Source of the DNA: Halopseudomonas nanhaiensis
GTDB taxonomy: Bacteria > Pseudomonadota > Gammaproteobacteria > Pseudomonadales > Pseudomonadaceae
Reading direction: 5' to 3'
Assembly: GCF_020025155.1 (NCBI RefSeq)
Contig: NZ_CP073751.1
Location: 2,294,001-2,358,000 of the forward strand
DNA: 64,000 bases
Below are positions 19,428-62,876 of the stretch, in pieces. The stretch's first letter is position 1, and the number at the start of each line of letters is the position of its first letter. Both the position numbers and the translations under genes were made by a program. The notes beneath the pieces were generated by a model that saw nothing but the letters and a program-made list of their open reading frames with translations, was not told where the DNA came from and did not search any database.

Positions 19428-19475
19428 ACAGTCAAGTTGAACAGACTGTGATTCCGACATCGCGGTATACACCGC
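19428..19475 (-). promoter_or_regulatory. Structured leader upstream of TerC-family gene
   Basis: Two small hairpins precede the SD: ACAGTC/GACTGT (19428-19433 with 19444-19449, 10-nt loop) directly before AAGGAGG, and GCGGT/ACCGC (19462-19466 with 19471-19475, 4-nt loop). TerC/Alx genes are often under Mn/pH-responsive leader RNAs (yybP-ykoY type). I do not see that motif clearly, so a regulatory RNA is only a possibility. Confidence 0.3.
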
Positions 19476-19627
19476 CAGAGGGGCCCGGCTTCACGGCGCT
19501 AAAGTATCACCCGCCGCAACGCGCGCAATAGCCTGGACCCTGCAAAGCATTTCCAGTTATGTCAAAGCCGCGTTACCTGCAGGCGTCGCCGCTTGCGACG
19601 TGTGACGGACTGTCGTAGAGTCGCCCA

Positions 19628-56870: not shown

Positions 56871-58268
56871 TCATAGTGTTTTGCGAACCGGCGAACGCGC
56901 CGAGCCTCTCGCCGAGACCCAGTCAAACAGCGGCAGTAACAACACACTCGCACCGAACGCGGGCATGACCAGGGCAAGCAAGAGGGCCGCAGTTGCCACC
57001 CCCCACCTCGAACGCCGGGTCATCCGCCCCCAGATCGTAATCAATCCTGAAGACAGGGCCCCGGCATTGCGTGTGTTACGTCGCCACCACATTGCATAGC
57101 CGAGCATTACCATGATCACAACGCCTGCCGCGGTCAGTACCAGCAACAGCTGGTTCACCCAGCCGAACAGGCTACCCATGTGCGCATCGATTCCCCAGCG
57201 TGTGAGCTTGGCCGCAAGCGGATACGTCGCGAACTCCAGCCTGTCGACCACCTGCATGCTTCGCGGATCGATTGCCACCGCATCGACCTGGGTCGGCCAG
57301 CTTCGATCAATCTCGGTAACGGTCCAGGCGCGGTCGTGCCCCCCGGACGGTCGAATCTCGATTCGCCCGGCATCGATGCCAGCCCGGCGGGCGCCGAGCA
57401 ATACCTGGTCGAGCGGCGTGAGATCGACTGGGCTCTGCGGCGCGACGCCAGGCAAAGGCGCGTGATGCTCGGCATGCATATCAGCGGGCGCGCTGGTGTC
57501 CAGTCGAGTGTTCAGCGCCGGCGTCGCCATTCCGGCGAATGCCCGCGCCACCCCGATAGTGTCGCCCGCCCATTTCGACCAGGTCAGGCCCGTCGCAGAA
57601 AAGAACAGCATTCCGAGCAGCAGGCACAGGCCGAGGGATGAGTGCCAACGCTGCAACTCTGGTCTGCGCATGCTCCCGCGGCGATGGCGTACCCGCGCGC
57701 GCCAGACCAGCAGGCCGCCAGCTGCCATCAACCAGAGCCATGAAGCGGCCAGTTCGCTATACAGCCGACCCCACTCGCCGAGAAACAACCGCCGGTGCAG
57801 GTCCCCCAGCCAGCTGCGCAAGGGCAGTACGCCGGTGGTGCCATACACGGTCAGCTCGCCAAGCGGCGTGGCTGTGACTGGATCGACGAACACTGCCCAG
57901 TGCTCGGAAGCGTCCAGGCCCGGTACGCTGAACATCACCCGAGTGGTCAGGCCGGGGCCAGGTGACGGGCGAACGGCCGCCAAAGCCGCAGGTTCGCCGA
58001 GATATCGCTGCGCAGCGTCGACCTGAAGCGAAAGTGGCTGGACTGCACCGCGACTGTCAGTGAACAGAAGGTGTTGATAAAGCCGATATTCGAGTTGCGG
58101 GGTCAACGCGTAAAGCAGACCGCTCAACGCGGCGATCAGGATAAAGGGTCCGATGAACAACCCTGCGAGGAAATGCAGCCGGGTGATCAGAGCAAGCAGG
58201 AGCTTGTCCGTATTCCCGCGCGGTGTGGCTCCGGCCTGCTCGGTCGGATCCTGAAGAACGATGGACAT
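56871..58268 (-). CDS. PepSY-associated TM protein (PiuB-like)
   Basis: 465-residue inner-membrane protein with four or more TM helices and PepSY regions, as in PiuB-like proteins tied to iron/siderophore reduction. Segments: LITRLHFLAGLFIGPFILIA, LGDLHRRLFLGEWGRLYSEL, RWHSSLGLCLLLGMLFFSAT, LTRWGIDAHMGSLFGWVNQL with membrane His residues that could bind haem. The periplasmic loop has His-rich MHAEHHAPL. Follows the DUF2946 gene by 85 bp on the same strand; such pairs occur near TonB receptors or copper genes. Confidence 0.88.
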   Translation of the reverse strand: MSIVLQDPTEQAGATPRGNTDKLLLALITRLHFLAGLFIGPFILIAALSGLLYALTPQLEYRLYQHLLFTDSRGAVQPLSLQVDAAQRYLGEPAALAAVRPSPGPGLTTRVMFSVPGLDASEHWAVFVDPVTATPLGELTVYGTTGVLPLRSWLGDLHRRLFLGEWGRLYSELAASWLWLMAAGGLLVWRARVRHRRGSMRRPELQRWHSSLGLCLLLGMLFFSATGLTWSKWAGDTIGVARAFAGMATPALNTRLDTSAPADMHAEHHAPLPGVAPQSPVDLTPLDQVLLGARRAGIDAGRIEIRPSGGHDRAWTVTEIDRSWPTQVDAVAIDPRSMQVVDRLEFATYPLAAKLTRWGIDAHMGSLFGWVNQLLLVLTAAGVVIMVMLGYAMWWRRNTRNAGALSSGLITIWGRMTRRSRWGVATAALLLALVMPAFGASVLLLPLFDWVSARGSARSPVRKTL

Positions 58269-58353: not shown

Positions 58354-58803
58354 TCAGGTCAGGCGAAGCTGTGCGGGCGGGGCTCGGGGGTTGATCGCTG
58401 GCCGAAGCTGGCGTGGCGAAGTACGGCGTATGTCGGCAGCCATGGGGCGCGCCGGTACCAGGATGGGGAGCACCGTGTCGACAGCTGCTGTGGCAAGTGC
58501 GACGCCAGGCTGCGCCGAGGCGCAGCAACACGGGGAAGCCGGGTCAACCGAGGACGGTGCGTGGGCATCCTGCTCGGTCTGCACCAACGATGCAGACCCA
58601 GGCGGATGGAGGTGATGGTCATGCGCATCGGCTTGCGCGGCGGCAGTGATCGAGGCAGTGGCGCCCAGGCAGTGGCCTCCGATACCGTACGCCAGCCTGA
58701 CCTCGGCACTAGCACTCGCCAGCGCCGGCATACCCAGTACATGCATGAGCATGGCCAGACAGGCAAGCACAGCATAGGAACGGCGGCGTGACGGCTTGGA
58801 CAT
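58354..58803 (-). CDS. DUF2946-like Cys/His protein
   Basis: 149 residues. Signal-peptide-like N-terminus (SYAVLACLAMLMHVLGMPAL), then metal-ligand clusters: ADAHDHHLH and PASPCCCASAQ, followed by a basic Pro-rich tail. Matches the loose DUF2946 pattern, proteins of unknown function common in metal regions. Between DAHP synthase (30-bp gap) and PepSY gene, same strand. Confidence 0.72.
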   Translation of the reverse strand: MSKPSRRRSYAVLACLAMLMHVLGMPALASASAEVRLAYGIGGHCLGATASITAAAQADAHDHHLHPPGSASLVQTEQDAHAPSSVDPASPCCCASAQPGVALATAAVDTVLPILVPARPMAADIRRTSPRQLRPAINPRAPPAQLRLT

Positions 58804-58833
58804 CGAGGATCCCGGGCGGTGGGTCAGATGAGT

Positions 58834-59934
58834 CTACCTCAGCGCAGCCGCTTTGCCAGCCAGCCTGTCCGCCGCATGCAGCAGTGCCTGTTCGGTCTTC
58901 GTCCAGCCCAGACACCCGTCGGTAACCGAAACGCCGTAAGCCAGCTGTCCGGTGAGCGGCTGGGAGCCGTCGAACAGATGGCTTTCGAGCATCACCCCCC
59001 GCAGAGCAGTTTCTCCGGCCAGGCGCTGCTCGATCACCGACTCCAGCACAGCCGGCTGGCGCAGGGGATCCTTGCCACTGTTGGCGTGACTGCAGTCGAC
59101 GATCAGCCTCGCGTCGATACCCCGCTTCGCCAGTGCCGCTCGCGCCATTGAAACGTGATCCGGCCCGTAATTGGGGCCTGCAGAGCCACCACGCAAGACC
59201 AGATGCACGTCCGGATTGCCCTGTGTCCGGATCAGTGCAGGGCAGCCCAGCTCATCCACACCGAAATGCTGATGAGAATGGGCAGCCGAACCCATTGCGT
59301 CGCAAGCGATGCTCACGCTTCCGTCGGTGCCGTTCTTGAAGCCCACCGGCAAGTCCAATCCGCTGACCAGTTCGCGATGCACCTGCGACTCACTGGTGCG
59401 GGCGCCAATTGCCGCCCAGGCAAGCAGATCGTCGAGATAGCCCGCCGCCAGCGGCTGCAGGAGTTCAGTGGCTACCGGAAGGTCGAGCGCGATCATTGAA
59501 AGCATCAGCCGGCGGGACAGCGCAAGGCCTTCGGCCATATCGCCGCGCCCATCGAGGTGTGGGTCATACAGCATGCCCTTCCAGCCAATCGTCGTGCGCG
59601 GCTTTTCCACATAGGCACGCATGACCAGCAGCAGCGTGTCATTCACCTGGGTGGACAGGTGCGCGAGGCGTTCGGCGTATTCGAGCGCTGAGTCCGGCTC
59701 ATGGAGCGAACAGGGACCGGCAATGACCAGCAGGCGGTCGTCTTCACCGCAGAGTACGGCGCGCACTGCATCGCGCTGGCGAGCAATACGCTGGTCCAGC
59801 GAATCGCTGACCGGAATTTGGTGGCGCAGCTGAGCTGGCGATGGCAGCGGCTGGGTGGACCGTCGGGCGCGAACCGAAACGGGAGCGGTATCGGACAGGT
59901 TAATTACGTTTGCGGCAGGGATGGGAGCGTTCAT
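58834..59934 (-). CDS. aroF: 3-deoxy-7-phosphoheptulonate (DAHP) synthase, class I
   Basis: 366 residues. Condenses phosphoenolpyruvate and erythrose-4-phosphate, the first step of aromatic amino-acid synthesis. AroFGH-type signatures: VIAGPCSLHEPDSALEYAER, YVEKPRTTIGWKGMLYDPHL, GARTSESQVHRELVSGLDLP, VGFKNGTDGS, DCSHANSGK. Which paralogue (Tyr-, Phe- or Trp-sensitive) is not decidable here, so the symbol is provisional. SD GAGGA (59948-59944) lies 9 nt before the ATG and directly after a hairpin. Upstream are two aromatic-rich leader peptides and a terminator. Confidence 0.94.
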   Translation of the reverse strand: MNAPIPAANVINLSDTAPVSVRARRSTQPLPSPAQLRHQIPVSDSLDQRIARQRDAVRAVLCGEDDRLLVIAGPCSLHEPDSALEYAERLAHLSTQVNDTLLLVMRAYVEKPRTTIGWKGMLYDPHLDGRGDMAEGLALSRRLMLSMIALDLPVATELLQPLAAGYLDDLLAWAAIGARTSESQVHRELVSGLDLPVGFKNGTDGSVSIACDAMGSAAHSHQHFGVDELGCPALIRTQGNPDVHLVLRGGSAGPNYGPDHVSMARAALAKRGIDARLIVDCSHANSGKDPLRQPAVLESVIEQRLAGETALRGVMLESHLFDGSQPLTGQLAYGVSVTDGCLGWTKTEQALLHAADRLAGKAAALR

Positions 59935-59949
59935 GAGCTATTTTCCTCG

Positions 59950-59973
59950 GCCGTGGCGGTGCTCCGCCACGGC
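59950..59973 (-). promoter_or_regulatory. Hairpin between second leader peptide and DAHP synthase SD
   Basis: Perfect 10-bp stem GCCGTGGCGG / CCGCCACGGC with a 4-nt loop. It begins 1 nt after the leader stop codon and ends 1 nt before the GAGGA ribosome site of the synthase gene. A ribosome at the leader stop would melt it. No T-tract follows, so translational control is more likely than termination. Confidence 0.55.
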
Positions 59974-59974
59974 A

Positions 59975-60070
59975 TTATCGTGACGTTCGACTGGGTACTG
60001 GATGTGGTGCGACGGACGCGCCGGTAAATCGCCAGCTGCGGTAGGAAAACAGTCGATAGGTGCGATACAT
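59975..60070 (-). CDS. Second aromatic-rich leader peptide (31 aa)
   Basis: ATG 60070-60068 with SD GAGGA 7 nt upstream; TAA at 59977-59975. The first 15 residues, MYRTYRLFSYRSWRF, contain three Tyr, two Phe and one Trp, with five Arg; then TGASVAPHP and PVPSRTSR. This codon bias is that of an amino-acid-sensing leader, not a normal protein. It sits between the intrinsic terminator (60108-60141) and the DAHP synthase gene. Confidence 0.65.
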   Translation of the reverse strand: MYRTYRLFSYRSWRFTGASVAPHPVPSRTSR

Positions 60071-60107
60071 GGGCAGATCCTCGTGTGAATAGAAACAAAC
60101 AGCCAAT

Positions 60108-60141
60108 AAAAAACCCCGGTCGGGTTGCCGACCGGGGTTTT
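60108..60141 (-). terminator. Attenuator-type intrinsic terminator upstream of DAHP synthase
   Basis: 14-bp perfect stem (60110-60123 with 60128-60141; AAAACCCCGGTCGG / CCGACCGGGGTTTT), 4-nt loop, T6 on the minus strand. It lies 46 nt after the stop of the first leader peptide, the distance expected for a transcription attenuator. Confidence 0.85.
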
Positions 60142-60173
60142 GCGAAACTGCGTGGTGGCGACCCTCTGAATGG

Positions 60174-60217
60174 GCGCCTGCGGGGTATCAGGCGCGTATG
60201 CGGCTAAACCAATACCC
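60174..60217 (-). promoter_or_regulatory. Competing RNA pairings between first leader and terminator
   Basis: On the minus strand GCGCCTG (60195-60189) pairs with CAGGCGC (60180-60174). The loop of this hairpin, ATACCC (60188-60183), is also complementary to GGGTAT (60217-60212), which lies in the Gly-Tyr codons of leader 1. The two pairings exclude each other, so ribosome position could choose between them. Confidence 0.5.
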
Positions 60218-60316
60218 AAAATAGACTGCAACGTCGGCCAGACTCGGTCGCGCGCCCGTCACCCCGGCCGAAGCCGTGGCGATAATCGAAAGCGGTCGAG
60301 CGACACTAGCTGACAT
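60188..60316 (-). CDS. First aromatic leader peptide (42 aa) upstream of DAHP synthase
   Basis: ATG 60316 with SD AGGAG 6 nt upstream, stop TGA 60190-60188. The peptide starts MSASVARPLSII and near its end has VAVYFGYWFSRIRA: five aromatic codons (Tyr, Phe, Tyr, Trp, Phe) in six, immediately before the stop and a transcription terminator. This is the form of a classical attenuation leader for an aromatic pathway gene. A longer in-frame start at 60376 is unlikely because it lies upstream of the predicted promoter. Confidence 0.7.
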   Translation of the reverse strand: MSASVARPLSIIATASAGVTGARPSLADVAVYFGYWFSRIRA

Positions 60317-60340
60317 ACAGGTCTCCTGAAACGTGTTCAG

Positions 60341-60370
60341 ACTGTAGCGGATTCGCGTCGGATCACGCAA
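60341..60370 (-). promoter_or_regulatory. Candidate promoter of leader-aroF unit
   Basis: Minus strand -35 TTGCGT (60370-60365), 18-bp spacer, -10 TACAGT (60346-60341). Transcription would start near 60334, about 18 nt before the first leader ATG. Confidence 0.45.
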
Positions 60371-60407
60371 GCGCACGAAACGCGCCTTCCAACGCTTCTC
60401 CAGCGAT

Positions 60408-60433
60408 GAGCCGGCTTCAGCCGAAGCCGGCTC
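60408..60433 (-). terminator. Hairpin downstream of acylase gene
   Basis: Perfect 11-bp stem GAGCCGGCTTC / GAAGCCGGCTC, 4-nt loop, just after the acylase gene. No T-tract on either strand, so it may stabilise the 3' end. Confidence 0.45.
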
Positions 60434-60452
60434 GCACCATCACTCTCTCAGT

Positions 60453-62876
60453 TCAAGCTTGGGACCCACCGCCTGCTCGGCAATCTGTGCGGCGCTGAAG
60501 GGTAGCGCGATCCAGTTCTTGTCCGAATAGCGTCGTGTCTGGTCCCGGGTTGGGGCTGGTCGTGTCTGCGGACTGCGAGTACGCCAGGAGCGCCTCTACA
60601 ACGGGCCCGTTCTCGTCGAACGTAACCGTTTGCATGTAGGTAGGCCCCTTGTTGATCGGCGTGTAATTGCCGCTATCGTCCGGACCCGGGCCCTCTGCCA
60701 CGTTGAACACACCCTCCCGCCCGATGCCACCGTGCATGGGAATGCGCTCATCATTGTTGCCTGCATCGACGACGAACTGAATCTCGCCCAGCGACGCGTC
60801 AAGCGCGACATTCCTGCTCTGGAACAGGGCGATGGCATCACCCAGCGCGGTGCGGGTGTCGCTATCGATCACCAGTCCCCTCGGCGTATTGACCGGATCG
60901 TTCTGATCGAACGGTACGCTGAATACGTTGGCGGTAGTCTCCTGGAACGGAACGCGCTTCCAGAACTCACGGAACACATGCGCACCGCGACTATCGAGGT
61001 TGTTGCGCCGGTCCCAGTCATCGAGTACCTGACAAGCCGTGGTGGCGTCCACGGTTCCACCGTCGCTGGTAGGCATGATGGGGTCGATCAGACAATCATC
61101 CAGCACGTCGTCCAGCACCAGTTCTGCTGCATAGCTGCGGTTGCCATAGACCAGTGTCTGGAGCTGGTCGAGCGTGAAGCCGGCAGCGCCCAGACCGTCG
61201 CTGCCATCCAGACGATCCTCGAGTTGGACAAGCCCCATGCGCGAGCGCATCAGCAACGGTACCGCTTCGCCAATGGTTGCACCGGGGTAAGGCAGCAGAC
61301 GTCGCCGCAGTAATGGGGAGTAGCCCGTCAACGGCGCATCGGGGTTGCTCAGCCAGTAGCTGTCGTTGGAATTTGCCACGTAGTCGTTGCGTACCAGCAC
61401 AGGCAGATTGCCCGGACCAAAGATGCCCTTTTGCGGGGAGTCGGCGTCCTCGCCCCATTCACAGGCTGCGGTCGCGCCATTCAGGGCAGGGATCCCCGCA
61501 GCGGCCAGAGCCTGCAACGCGGGTTGGCCATCGATGCAGGCCTGGAACTTCTCGGTGGTGACGTGAGGCACGGTAGAGATATCGGCGTACATCGCTTTTC
61601 CGTAGCGATCGGTTGCGATGGTATTGACGAACGGCAAGCCGACGATGGTCTGGAGCTTGTCGACCAGATCCTCGACGCTGGTAGCCTTGTCCATTGCGAG
61701 CCATTGATTGATTGCCCGCGGATTCTCGGAGGCAGCGTCACGAATGGCAAAGGCGATACCTGCACCACCCCAGGGCGGCAGCTGATCGTTGACCAGATTC
61801 ACCGCAATCATCGGGCCGTAGTGAGACAGGTACACACTGCCCTGCTGCGTACTGCCATTGGCCAGCTGAATGCTTACGTCCACCCGCTCGATATCACGCT
61901 GTTCGAGCTGTCCGTCTGCAGTCTGAGACAGGTATTTCATCGGGTCGCCATCGACCAGCGCAAGCTGATACAAAGTGAAACGCTTGGCAGTCGAGACCGT
62001 GTGGCTCCAGGCGACATCCTTGTTGAAACCGATGTTCGGAAAGGGTTGCCCCTGCTGGCCTACGCCCATGACGTCCAGCTCGCCAGGCAACGTCAAATGG
62101 AACTCGTAGAAGCGCTGGACGCCGTCCCATGGCTCATGCGGGTTACCGTACAGCATGCCGTTGCCGCTGGCGGTAAGCTCCGATCCAAGCGCATAGGCGT
62201 TGCTGCCGCCGTTGGCAACGTTGATAGTGGTCATGTCGAAGCCGCTGTCGCTGTTGACGCTGGCGGCGGTCCCAGGCGGCTGAGCTGCAACGATCGGACC
62301 GACGAAGTTGGACAGCCCCCCTCGTAGCCCGCCCTTCCCGTATACGGCGAGCAGATCCTGCTCGGTAATCTCCCTGACCCAGGCCTGACCTGCGCAGGCG
62401 GGGTCGATATTCGCGGCGCCGGTGTCGCGCAAATAGCGGTTGTAGCCTGCGGCATAGCCGGATACGGCGTCCCTCACCTGCTGGTTCTGCGCATCCCAGA
62501 ACGTCTGACGCTGCGCAGCGGAGTTGTACCAGGTATAGAAAATGTCGCTGGCTACGCTGCCGTTGGCCAGGTAGCGGGCACTTTCGCCGTTGGCGAACAC
62601 GATCTCCTCGGCGAGCGAACAGATGTTGTCCTCGGCGAATGCATAGCCCACACCGTACCCGAGCCCCTTGTAATCCTGAGCGGTGATGTGCGGAATACCG
62701 AACTGCGTTCGCTGTATGTCCACGGAATAGGTGTTCTGCGCGGGAGGCGTCGGTTCGGCGACCGGTGGATCGTCATTATCACTGCCCCCGCTCAGGCAGC
62801 CGGACAGTGCAAGACTGGCGGTGACGCTCAGGATCGCAAAAACGCGGCCTCGAAGGCCGTATGGCTCGATCTGCAT
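60453..62876 (-). CDS. Penicillin/AHL acylase-family Ntn-hydrolase lipoprotein, apparent 3' frameshift
   Basis: 807 residues as read. Lipoprotein signal with LSGC (Cys27), then the acylase fold (VDIQRTQFGIPHITAQDYKG, GYGVGYAFAEDNICSLAEEI). The autocatalytic nucleophile is Ser225 in NGGSNAYALG, followed by YGNPHEPWDGVQRFYEFHLT. Such enzymes cleave amides of beta-lactams or acyl-homoserine lactones. The last 28 codons (from about 60544 to 60453) do not look like the family. In the +1 frame the same DNA encodes RRYSDKNWIALPFSAAQIAE, the expected C-terminus, ending at 60440. One missing G in the CCCGGG run at 60544-60549 explains it: a real mutation or a sequencing error. Confidence 0.88.
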   Translation of the reverse strand: MQIEPYGLRGRVFAILSVTASLALSGCLSGGSDNDDPPVAEPTPPAQNTYSVDIQRTQFGIPHITAQDYKGLGYGVGYAFAEDNICSLAEEIVFANGESARYLANGSVASDIFYTWYNSAAQRQTFWDAQNQQVRDAVSGYAAGYNRYLRDTGAANIDPACAGQAWVREITEQDLLAVYGKGGLRGGLSNFVGPIVAAQPPGTAASVNSDSGFDMTTINVANGGSNAYALGSELTASGNGMLYGNPHEPWDGVQRFYEFHLTLPGELDVMGVGQQGQPFPNIGFNKDVAWSHTVSTAKRFTLYQLALVDGDPMKYLSQTADGQLEQRDIERVDVSIQLANGSTQQGSVYLSHYGPMIAVNLVNDQLPPWGGAGIAFAIRDAASENPRAINQWLAMDKATSVEDLVDKLQTIVGLPFVNTIATDRYGKAMYADISTVPHVTTEKFQACIDGQPALQALAAAGIPALNGATAACEWGEDADSPQKGIFGPGNLPVLVRNDYVANSNDSYWLSNPDAPLTGYSPLLRRRLLPYPGATIGEAVPLLMRSRMGLVQLEDRLDGSDGLGAAGFTLDQLQTLVYGNRSYAAELVLDDVLDDCLIDPIMPTSDGGTVDATTACQVLDDWDRRNNLDSRGAHVFREFWKRVPFQETTANVFSVPFDQNDPVNTPRGLVIDSDTRTALGDAIALFQSRNVALDASLGEIQFVVDAGNNDERIPMHGGIGREGVFNVAEGPGPDDSGNYTPINKGPTYMQTVTFDENGPVVEALLAYSQSADTTSPNPGPDTTLFGQELDRATLQRRTDCRAGGGSQA

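Follow-up and report, generated by a model that had tools for sequence, protein, structure and literature searches.

What do two short open reading frames (ORFs) do when they stand in series before a gene for 3-deoxy-D-arabino-heptulosonate 7-phosphate (DAHP) synthase? The question is raised by a 64,000 nt stretch of the Halopseudomonas nanhaiensis genome (contig NZ_CP073751.1, positions 2,294,001 to 2,358,000; hereafter the window), where the DAHP synthase gene and a penicillin-amidase-family gene (60453-62876) flank two such ORFs on the minus strand. We propose that this 5′ region is probably a two-stage sensor of aromatic amino-acid supply, the first ORF and its terminator (unit 1) acting on transcription and the second ORF (leader 2) on translation of the synthase. 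The original prediction, made from the letters alone, had placed the two leaders, the terminator, a hairpin after the second stop codon and the synthase start, and base-by-base inspection confirmed each position. The parts on which the argument depends are as follows.

58834-59934, minus strand: DAHP synthase, type I AroFGH family, 366 aa (TIGR00034, 414 bits; PF00793, 243 bits)
59948-59942, minus strand: synthase Shine-Dalgarno (SD) sequence GAGGAAA, with the synthase ATG at 59934
60316-60188, minus strand: leader peptide 1, 42 codons, end VYFGYWFSRIRA-stop, with SD AGGAGA at 60327-60322
60217-60206, minus strand: leader-1 regulatory codons GGG TAT TGG TTT
60113-60230, minus strand: Rfam P15 (RF00627), from the Tyr/Phe/Trp codons through the end of the terminator stem (97 bits, E = 1.8e-18)
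60070-59975, minus strand: leader peptide 2, 31 codons, MYRTYRLFSYRSWRFTGASVAPHPVPSRTSR, beginning MYRTYRLFSYRSWRF, with SD GAGGAT at 60082-60077
60026-60034, minus strand: W-R-F core of leader 2, TGG CGA TTT, near-invariant

Among 10,000 dinucleotide shuffles of positions 59935-60370, at least one SD-led ATG ORF with at least four W/Y/F per 10 codons arose in 92, and two or more SD-led aromatic ORFs arose in one; the real segment has two, with scores of 5 and 4. The best PDB sequence match of the synthase is the Tyr-sensitive enzyme 6agl. We take PA1750 to be the P. aeruginosa counterpart. The main text of a term-mapping paper (PMC8297930) names none of PA1750, P15, aroF and DAHP.

The Rfam search proposed along with the original prediction showed that unit 1 coincides with P15, a family that the prediction had not named, and the score of 97 bits against a gathering threshold of 70 makes it a member. 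The family's 398 genomes include 337 with a P15 match, spread over 14 of the 19 genera; the 14 control genomes gave none, under strict filters that lose weak matches. A second sample of 58 genomes, also strictly filtered, had matches in 31, all from the window's genus; its 21 genomes of other families had none. Six genus members had no P15 match; three of these (G024, G027 and G029) were read and are described below, G030 has only a distant paralogue, and G014 and G031 were left out.

To follow both leaders we parsed 151 loci (92 + 59; 149 distinct sequences) from all 14 P15 genera plus one Alcanivorax record. Parsing demanded an aromatic motif looser than GYWF for leader 1, while leader 2 had to be an ORF carrying a W-type motif; in the set of 59 it also needed an SD match of at least three bases. 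Both leaders are present in 151/151 by construction because the motifs were required; GYWF, WRF and the codon counts were not so selected. Among 93 leader-1 loci of the first set, the leader-2 motif failed only in L001, which has W without WRF, and in L014, at a contig end. L001 was added by hand, L200 was dropped as incomplete, and L032 is on the same contig as L008. Nine loci of the first set lacked the leader-1 motif: L110, L118 and L119, which had both leaders when refetched as L197-L199; L120-L122 and L124, whose single leader is of another kind; and L123 and L125, where none was seen.

Unit 1 has a translatable leader with clustered codons of the pathway product. GYWF occurs in leader 1 at 144 of the 151 loci, and TAT-TGG-TTT is near-invariant (TAT in 141 and TTT in 146 of 147 YWF loci). 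An SD match of at least four bases precedes leader 1 in 149/151 and leader 2 in 151/151. Together with WRF in leader 2 (143/151), these counts bear out the expectation that aromatic codons and SDs would recur in relatives. Unit 1 also has an intrinsic terminator with an alternative antiterminator, and its six segments, A to F, can pair in two states.

60183-60217, minus strand: hairpin A:B (GGGTAT with ATACCC) over the aromatic codons, 91.8% of alignment cells paired in 64 sequences
60157-60178, minus strand: hairpin C:D (GGCGCCC with GGGTCGCC), 93.5% of cells paired
60174-60195, minus strand: alternative hairpin B:C (GCGCCTG with CAGGCGC) at the leader-1 stop codon, 91.1% of cells paired
60122-60164, minus strand: antiterminator D:E (GGGTCGCCACC with GGTCGGCAACCC), 81.6% of cells paired in the tested 8-pair core
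60107-60141, minus strand: intrinsic terminator E:F with T6, 98.2% of cells paired in 64 sequences

The terminator stem is 11 bp long at 60138-60113, or 14 bp counting the flanking A-T pairs, and T6 follows it. In the alignment, which holds 64 of the 76 listed representatives, the attenuator-state helices A:B, C:D and E:F have standard pairs in 95.2% of cells versus at most 60.0% when slid, and the antiterminator-state helices B:C and D:E in 86.0% versus at most 55.1%. B:C and D:E show 16 double-change cells against a shuffle mean of 6.3, above all shuffles. Only in the attenuator-state structure do pairs with changes on both sides outnumber those of the shuffles; there are three, each within E:F, the terminator. 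A terminator scan of 58500-61500 returned one site against a shuffle mean of 1.7, that is, no excess, so the support for the terminator is its conservation.

We then modelled a ribosome as a mask on unit 1 RNA extending up to the terminator loop, with the 3′ arm of the terminator unmade, in 75 loci (L137 and L198 left out). The expected number of D:E pairs was 7.10 with the ribosome at Trp, 4.65 at the stop codon and 4.84 with no ribosome. From stop to Trp, D:E rose by more than 0.5 pair in 48/75 loci and fell by as much in 4/75 (p = 8e-9); relative to no ribosome, it rose in 41/75. On average the antiterminator was favoured when the ribosome stood at either Tyr or Trp, and the Trp position also favoured B:C. 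The minimum free energy (MFE) fold of the window under a Trp stall contains both B:C and D:E. These models support transcription attenuation by unit 1. The original prediction of a trpL/pheL-type unit is supported as to a leader-peptide attenuator, whose aromatic codons and terminator recur in the parsed loci, and needs amending as to its form, which is a six-segment his-type layout and not the simplest trpL one.

Leader 2 is coding. It contains W in 150 of the 151 loci, and single-base codon changes in its frame are synonymous in 1683 cases versus 2005 not, compared with 719 versus 2783 and 1003 versus 2927 in the other frames. These counts come from equal-length pairs in 486 overlapping, mutually dependent comparisons; 46 non-overlapping pairs gave 117 synonymous versus 147 not. 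Two to six Tyr codons (mean 3.5; the whole peptide was counted in L040 and L117) precede the W motif, and by inspection Tyr is the commonest aromatic residue ahead of W.

The length of leader 2 varies. At 40 loci (L071-L100, L114, L115, L132-L134, L136, L137, L160, L194 and L195) it has 48-54 codons, and an insert, for example RSGQPAASDRS, separates WRF from the C-terminal Arg-Thr. DNA that looks unusually conserved in the g35 alignment suggests that the long leader 2 may carry an extra RNA element. Outside the family, L040 (Alcanivorax sp. DP30) has a P15-like leader 1 by motif only and a shorter second ORF, MYRYQPTTLQLKGLWPQILLTLRR, without WRF. Two further ideas about the leader-2 core were rejected. 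One was that it is a widespread element: 20 of 22 genomes searched match TGGCGATTT-N20-50-CGAACR, many at unrelated places, and in the window's own genome the only match is at leader 2. Nor is the TGGCGA core kept for pairing with TCGCCA of unit 1, as judged by eye from lineages that lose TCGCCA and keep the core.

How could a second leader act on the synthase? The features in question lie around its start codon.

59935-59948, minus strand: synthase SD and start region, the predicted sequestration target
60043-60054, minus strand: leader-2 segment GACTGTTTTCCT, duplex of -13.8 kcal/mol with the synthase start at 59935-59947
59950-59973, minus strand: 10-bp post-stop hairpin, 1 nt after the leader-2 stop and 1 nt before the synthase SD (z = -5.2 versus shuffles)

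Since RNAalifold gave no useful shared structure for the leader-2 region in the window's genus (-3.2 kcal/mol) or a mixed group (-0.5 kcal/mol), leader-2 pairing was tested by swapping partners between loci; the g35 group gave -29.6 kcal/mol. Across 150 loci (L001 left out) and 50 representatives, the duplex of the start site with leader-2 positions W-30 to W+15 was stronger for own than for swapped partners (-11.61 versus -10.23 kcal/mol, p = 5e-5), and swapping within groups only gave p = 1.5e-4. No own-over-swapped excess was found for any of four control segments: W-60 to W-15 (p = 0.27), W+15 to W+60 (p = 0.999), synthase positions +6 to +51 (p = 0.9997) and the final 45 nt of leader 2 (p = 1.0); all but the first of these showed a deficit. 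When windows of 20 nt were scanned, the excess fell in those starting at W-18, W-12 and W-6. An earlier test with 90 loci and 38 representatives gave p = 2e-4 for all, 0.07 for the window's genus and 0.22 for g35. The partners themselves vary by lineage: the window can pair GACTGTTTTCCT with AGGAAAATAGCTC, Azotobacter CATGACTGGCG with CGCCAGATCATG, and further lineages ATGACTGGCG with CGCCAGTCAT.

The effect of a ribosome on the start site was modelled with a 28-nt footprint at 14 mask positions in the 50 representatives. Footprints centred from W-27 to W+12 lower the opening energy of the start site. The drop is largest at W-12, with a mean of -1.02 kcal/mol (22/50 fell and 2/50 rose by over 1; p = 3e-6 before correction for 14 masks). 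Masks placed from W+18 to W+36 leave the opening energy unchanged, and one over the stop codon increases it by 0.88 (p = 0.0015). In longer folds, a mask at W raises the accessibility of the start site from 0.26 to 0.63 in the window, where the MFE helix vanishes, and from 0.09 to 0.68 in the neighbour L016. The pairing data support translational attenuation.

The post-stop hairpin has room in 45 of the 50 representatives, and in all 45 the segment folds below -8 kcal/mol (mean z = -2.92; z < -2 in 33/45). It is made from quite different sequences across lineages, and it likely brings the start site and leader 2 together or prevents local pairing of the site. A second transcription terminator after leader 2 was considered and rejected: 58500-61500 contains one terminator-like site only, and by eye no T run follows the post-stop hairpin.

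These elements can be assembled into the following scheme. When Tyr, Trp or Phe is plentiful, the ribosome on leader 1 would reach the stop codon and the P15 terminator would form. A stall at GGG-TAT-TGG-TTT would cover segment A, so that B:C pairs, D pairs with the 5′ side of the terminator and RNA polymerase reads through. The escaping transcripts would then face a check on their translation: leader-2 RNA around the Tyr/Trp codons may pair with the synthase SD and start, over a distance that the stable post-stop hairpin would shorten, and a ribosome held at those codons would remove the pairing partner and free the start site. The layout of the parts, their conservation and that of the stems, the coding character and a complementarity specific to one location are observed; we infer the stalling, termination, read-through and switch in translation of this scheme, as well as the amino acid that dominates it.

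Several observations weigh against this two-stage scheme. For unit 1, B:C and D:E together have two pairs with changes on both sides, a number reached by 474/500 shuffles, and A:B and C:D have none. D:E is unpaired at one position in 61/64 sequences and at another in 30/64, and it fell by more than 0.5 pair in 13/75 loci when a ribosome at Trp was compared with none. The window's MFE folds at a Tyr or Phe stall have B:C and lack D:E, as do L072 and L109 with respect to D:E under the Trp mask (two of five loci with displayed folds). For leader 2, the pairing signal is carried by 29 short-leader representatives (p = 5e-5), is absent from the eight long-leader ones (p = 0.64) and, in the window's genus (13 representatives), reaches no more than a suggestive p = 0.08. 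At the window's own locus masking barely shifts the opening energy, from 6.3 to 6.1. Accessibility of the SD only was a weak test (best mask +0.07, p = 0.025 uncorrected), and 5/50 representatives have no room for the post-stop hairpin. Finally, the model leaves unexplained why TGGCGATTT is near-invariant in leader 2 even where it is not the pairing partner. The original prediction of translational control by unit 2 is supported by a coding leader present in all 14 P15 genera and by the specific complementarity of its Trp-codon region to the start site; the pairing is a statistic across the family, which the thermodynamic model does not reproduce at the window's own locus.

The restriction of the signal to short-leader lineages and the inert mask in the window's own fold would be expected if only unit 1 regulates, leader 2 being a translated spacer that serves coupling, Rho exclusion or anti-refolding and senses nothing itself. 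Loci with a single leader point the same way. Three genomes of the window's genus (G024, G027 and G029; loci L121, L120 and L122) have no P15 match and carry a different leader ending WAWFGFGFYYRQSSGRLCFS before a synthase of 55% identity; their terminator-like hairpin adjoins the synthase SD, and no leader 2 was seen. A relative in the same order (G055, locus L124) likewise has one aromatic leader, with a hairpin resembling a terminator, before its DAHP synthase homologue. Control of this step in one stage therefore coexists in the group with control in two. A spacer, however, would not be expected to keep W in all but one of the 151 loci and WRF in 143, to place at least two Tyr codons ahead of the W motif, or to confine its start-site complementarity, among the segments tested, to the Trp-codon region. 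We regard a purely spacing role as rather unlikely and prefer the two-stage sensor.

The WRF core could instead be an arrest element, working through the nascent peptide or through slow codons (TGG then CGA), so that the second stage would sense a signal other than, or additional to, charged aromatic tRNA. CGA is a slowly read codon. Codon choice in the core is strict, with CGA in 141 and TTT in 142 of 143 WRF loci, against 15/121 Arg codons and 10/50 Phe codons in four window genes, and the core persists even where another segment pairs better, the window being one such case. Yet WRF is missing from 8/151 loci, and CTGGCG itself takes part in the start-site duplex of many lineages, which is a possible reason for the conservation of the core bases. 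Such an arrest element is in our view unlikely. A broader version, which we put forward as doubtful speculation, is that TGG-CGA-TTT is a programmed stall, by slow CGA or the WRF nascent peptide, that joins Trp/Tyr charging with translation status in a family-wide two-stage gate, P15 being the aborted product of the first check. If so, the first committed aromatic step would be checked twice by different physics.

Is P15 chiefly an RNA with work elsewhere? Rfam types RF00627 as a gene and describes it as a Pseudomonas small RNA (sRNA), and in PMC2375449 it is named among sRNAs of an earlier screen that the authors themselves did not recover. It could then be mainly a trans-acting sRNA, or its leader peptide could act in trans, with its place before the synthase secondary; the peptide of a terminated leader can take on a second role, peTrpL of Sinorhizobium being reported to act in trans (PMC7298713). 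Against this, P15 includes the aromatic end of an SD-led ORF, and at the parsed loci it precedes a synthase gene that points the same way. At 139/151 loci the protein encoded downstream is a match to the window's synthase, and 11 of the 12 others, with too little sequence, had been fetched by synthase match. We consider a mainly trans-acting P15 very improbable. That P15 is a metabolite-binding riboswitch, as suggested from synteny in 2008 (PMC2527527), is scarcely credible, since its conservation is concentrated at the Tyr-Trp-Phe codons of an ORF that looks translated and at the helices that alternate around those codons.

The two-stage reading assigns a proposed function to an Rfam family whose only description is that of a Pseudomonas sRNA. 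It predicts control of entry into aromatic synthesis across much of a large bacterial family, which is relevant to engineering Pseudomonas for aromatics, and would make available a natural locus where simple mutations can separate attenuation of transcription from that of translation in response to the same supply.

Other features of the region can be listed briefly. A promoter scan found none, the candidate below scoring under its threshold, and a search for a -10 motif ahead of leader 1 gave matches at 12 of the 150 loci covered.

60341-60370, minus strand: weak, unproven promoter candidate TTGCGT-N18-TACAGT upstream of leader 1, read from the sequence
58357-58803, minus strand: small protein downstream of the synthase with a sub-threshold DUF2946 match
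56874-58268: PepSY_TM gene adjoining the gene for the small DUF2946-like protein
19445-19496, minus strand: Rfam terC RNA (RF03067), 48.3 bits versus a gathering score of 39.9

How does this arrangement compare with known systems? In open-access PubMed Central text we found neither P15 as an attenuator, nor a second leader before DAHP synthase, nor a pathway in which a leader-peptide transcription attenuator is combined with a second, translational stage that also uses a leader peptide. The hisL, pheL and trpL attenuators are alike in their SD-led leader peptide, clustered end-product codons, mutually exclusive hairpins and intrinsic terminator; the window locus differs from them in its mixed Tyr-Trp-Phe codons, its six segments and a second leader after the terminator. 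The rtpA (anti-TRAP) leader of Bacillus subtilis is similar in that the same amino acid is checked in transcription and then in translation via a leader peptide, whereas its first stage is a T box, in another phylum and before another gene, and that of the window locus is a leader-peptide attenuator. The single leaders of G024, G027, G029 and G055 share with the window locus an aromatic leader and a terminator-like hairpin before a DAHP synthase homologue, and differ in the leader peptide, the lack of a P15 match and of a visible leader 2, and the hairpin adjoining the synthase SD. Where Rfam lists RF00627 as an sRNA gene, we see in unit 1 the core of an attenuator that acts in cis and includes coding sequence. 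The original prediction called serial sensing by two mechanisms in one leader unusual; serial leaders are rare, and a precedent exists in Salmonella mgtCBR, whose single leader holds two short ORFs for two separate signals (PMC3641672). Both mgtCBR stages are reported there as transcriptional, responding to ATP and proline, whereas the second stage here is predicted to be translational and both would sense aromatic supply. The B. subtilis vmlR leader is also reported to combine transcription and translation attenuation (PMC9226507). The component parts of the window locus are of known kinds.
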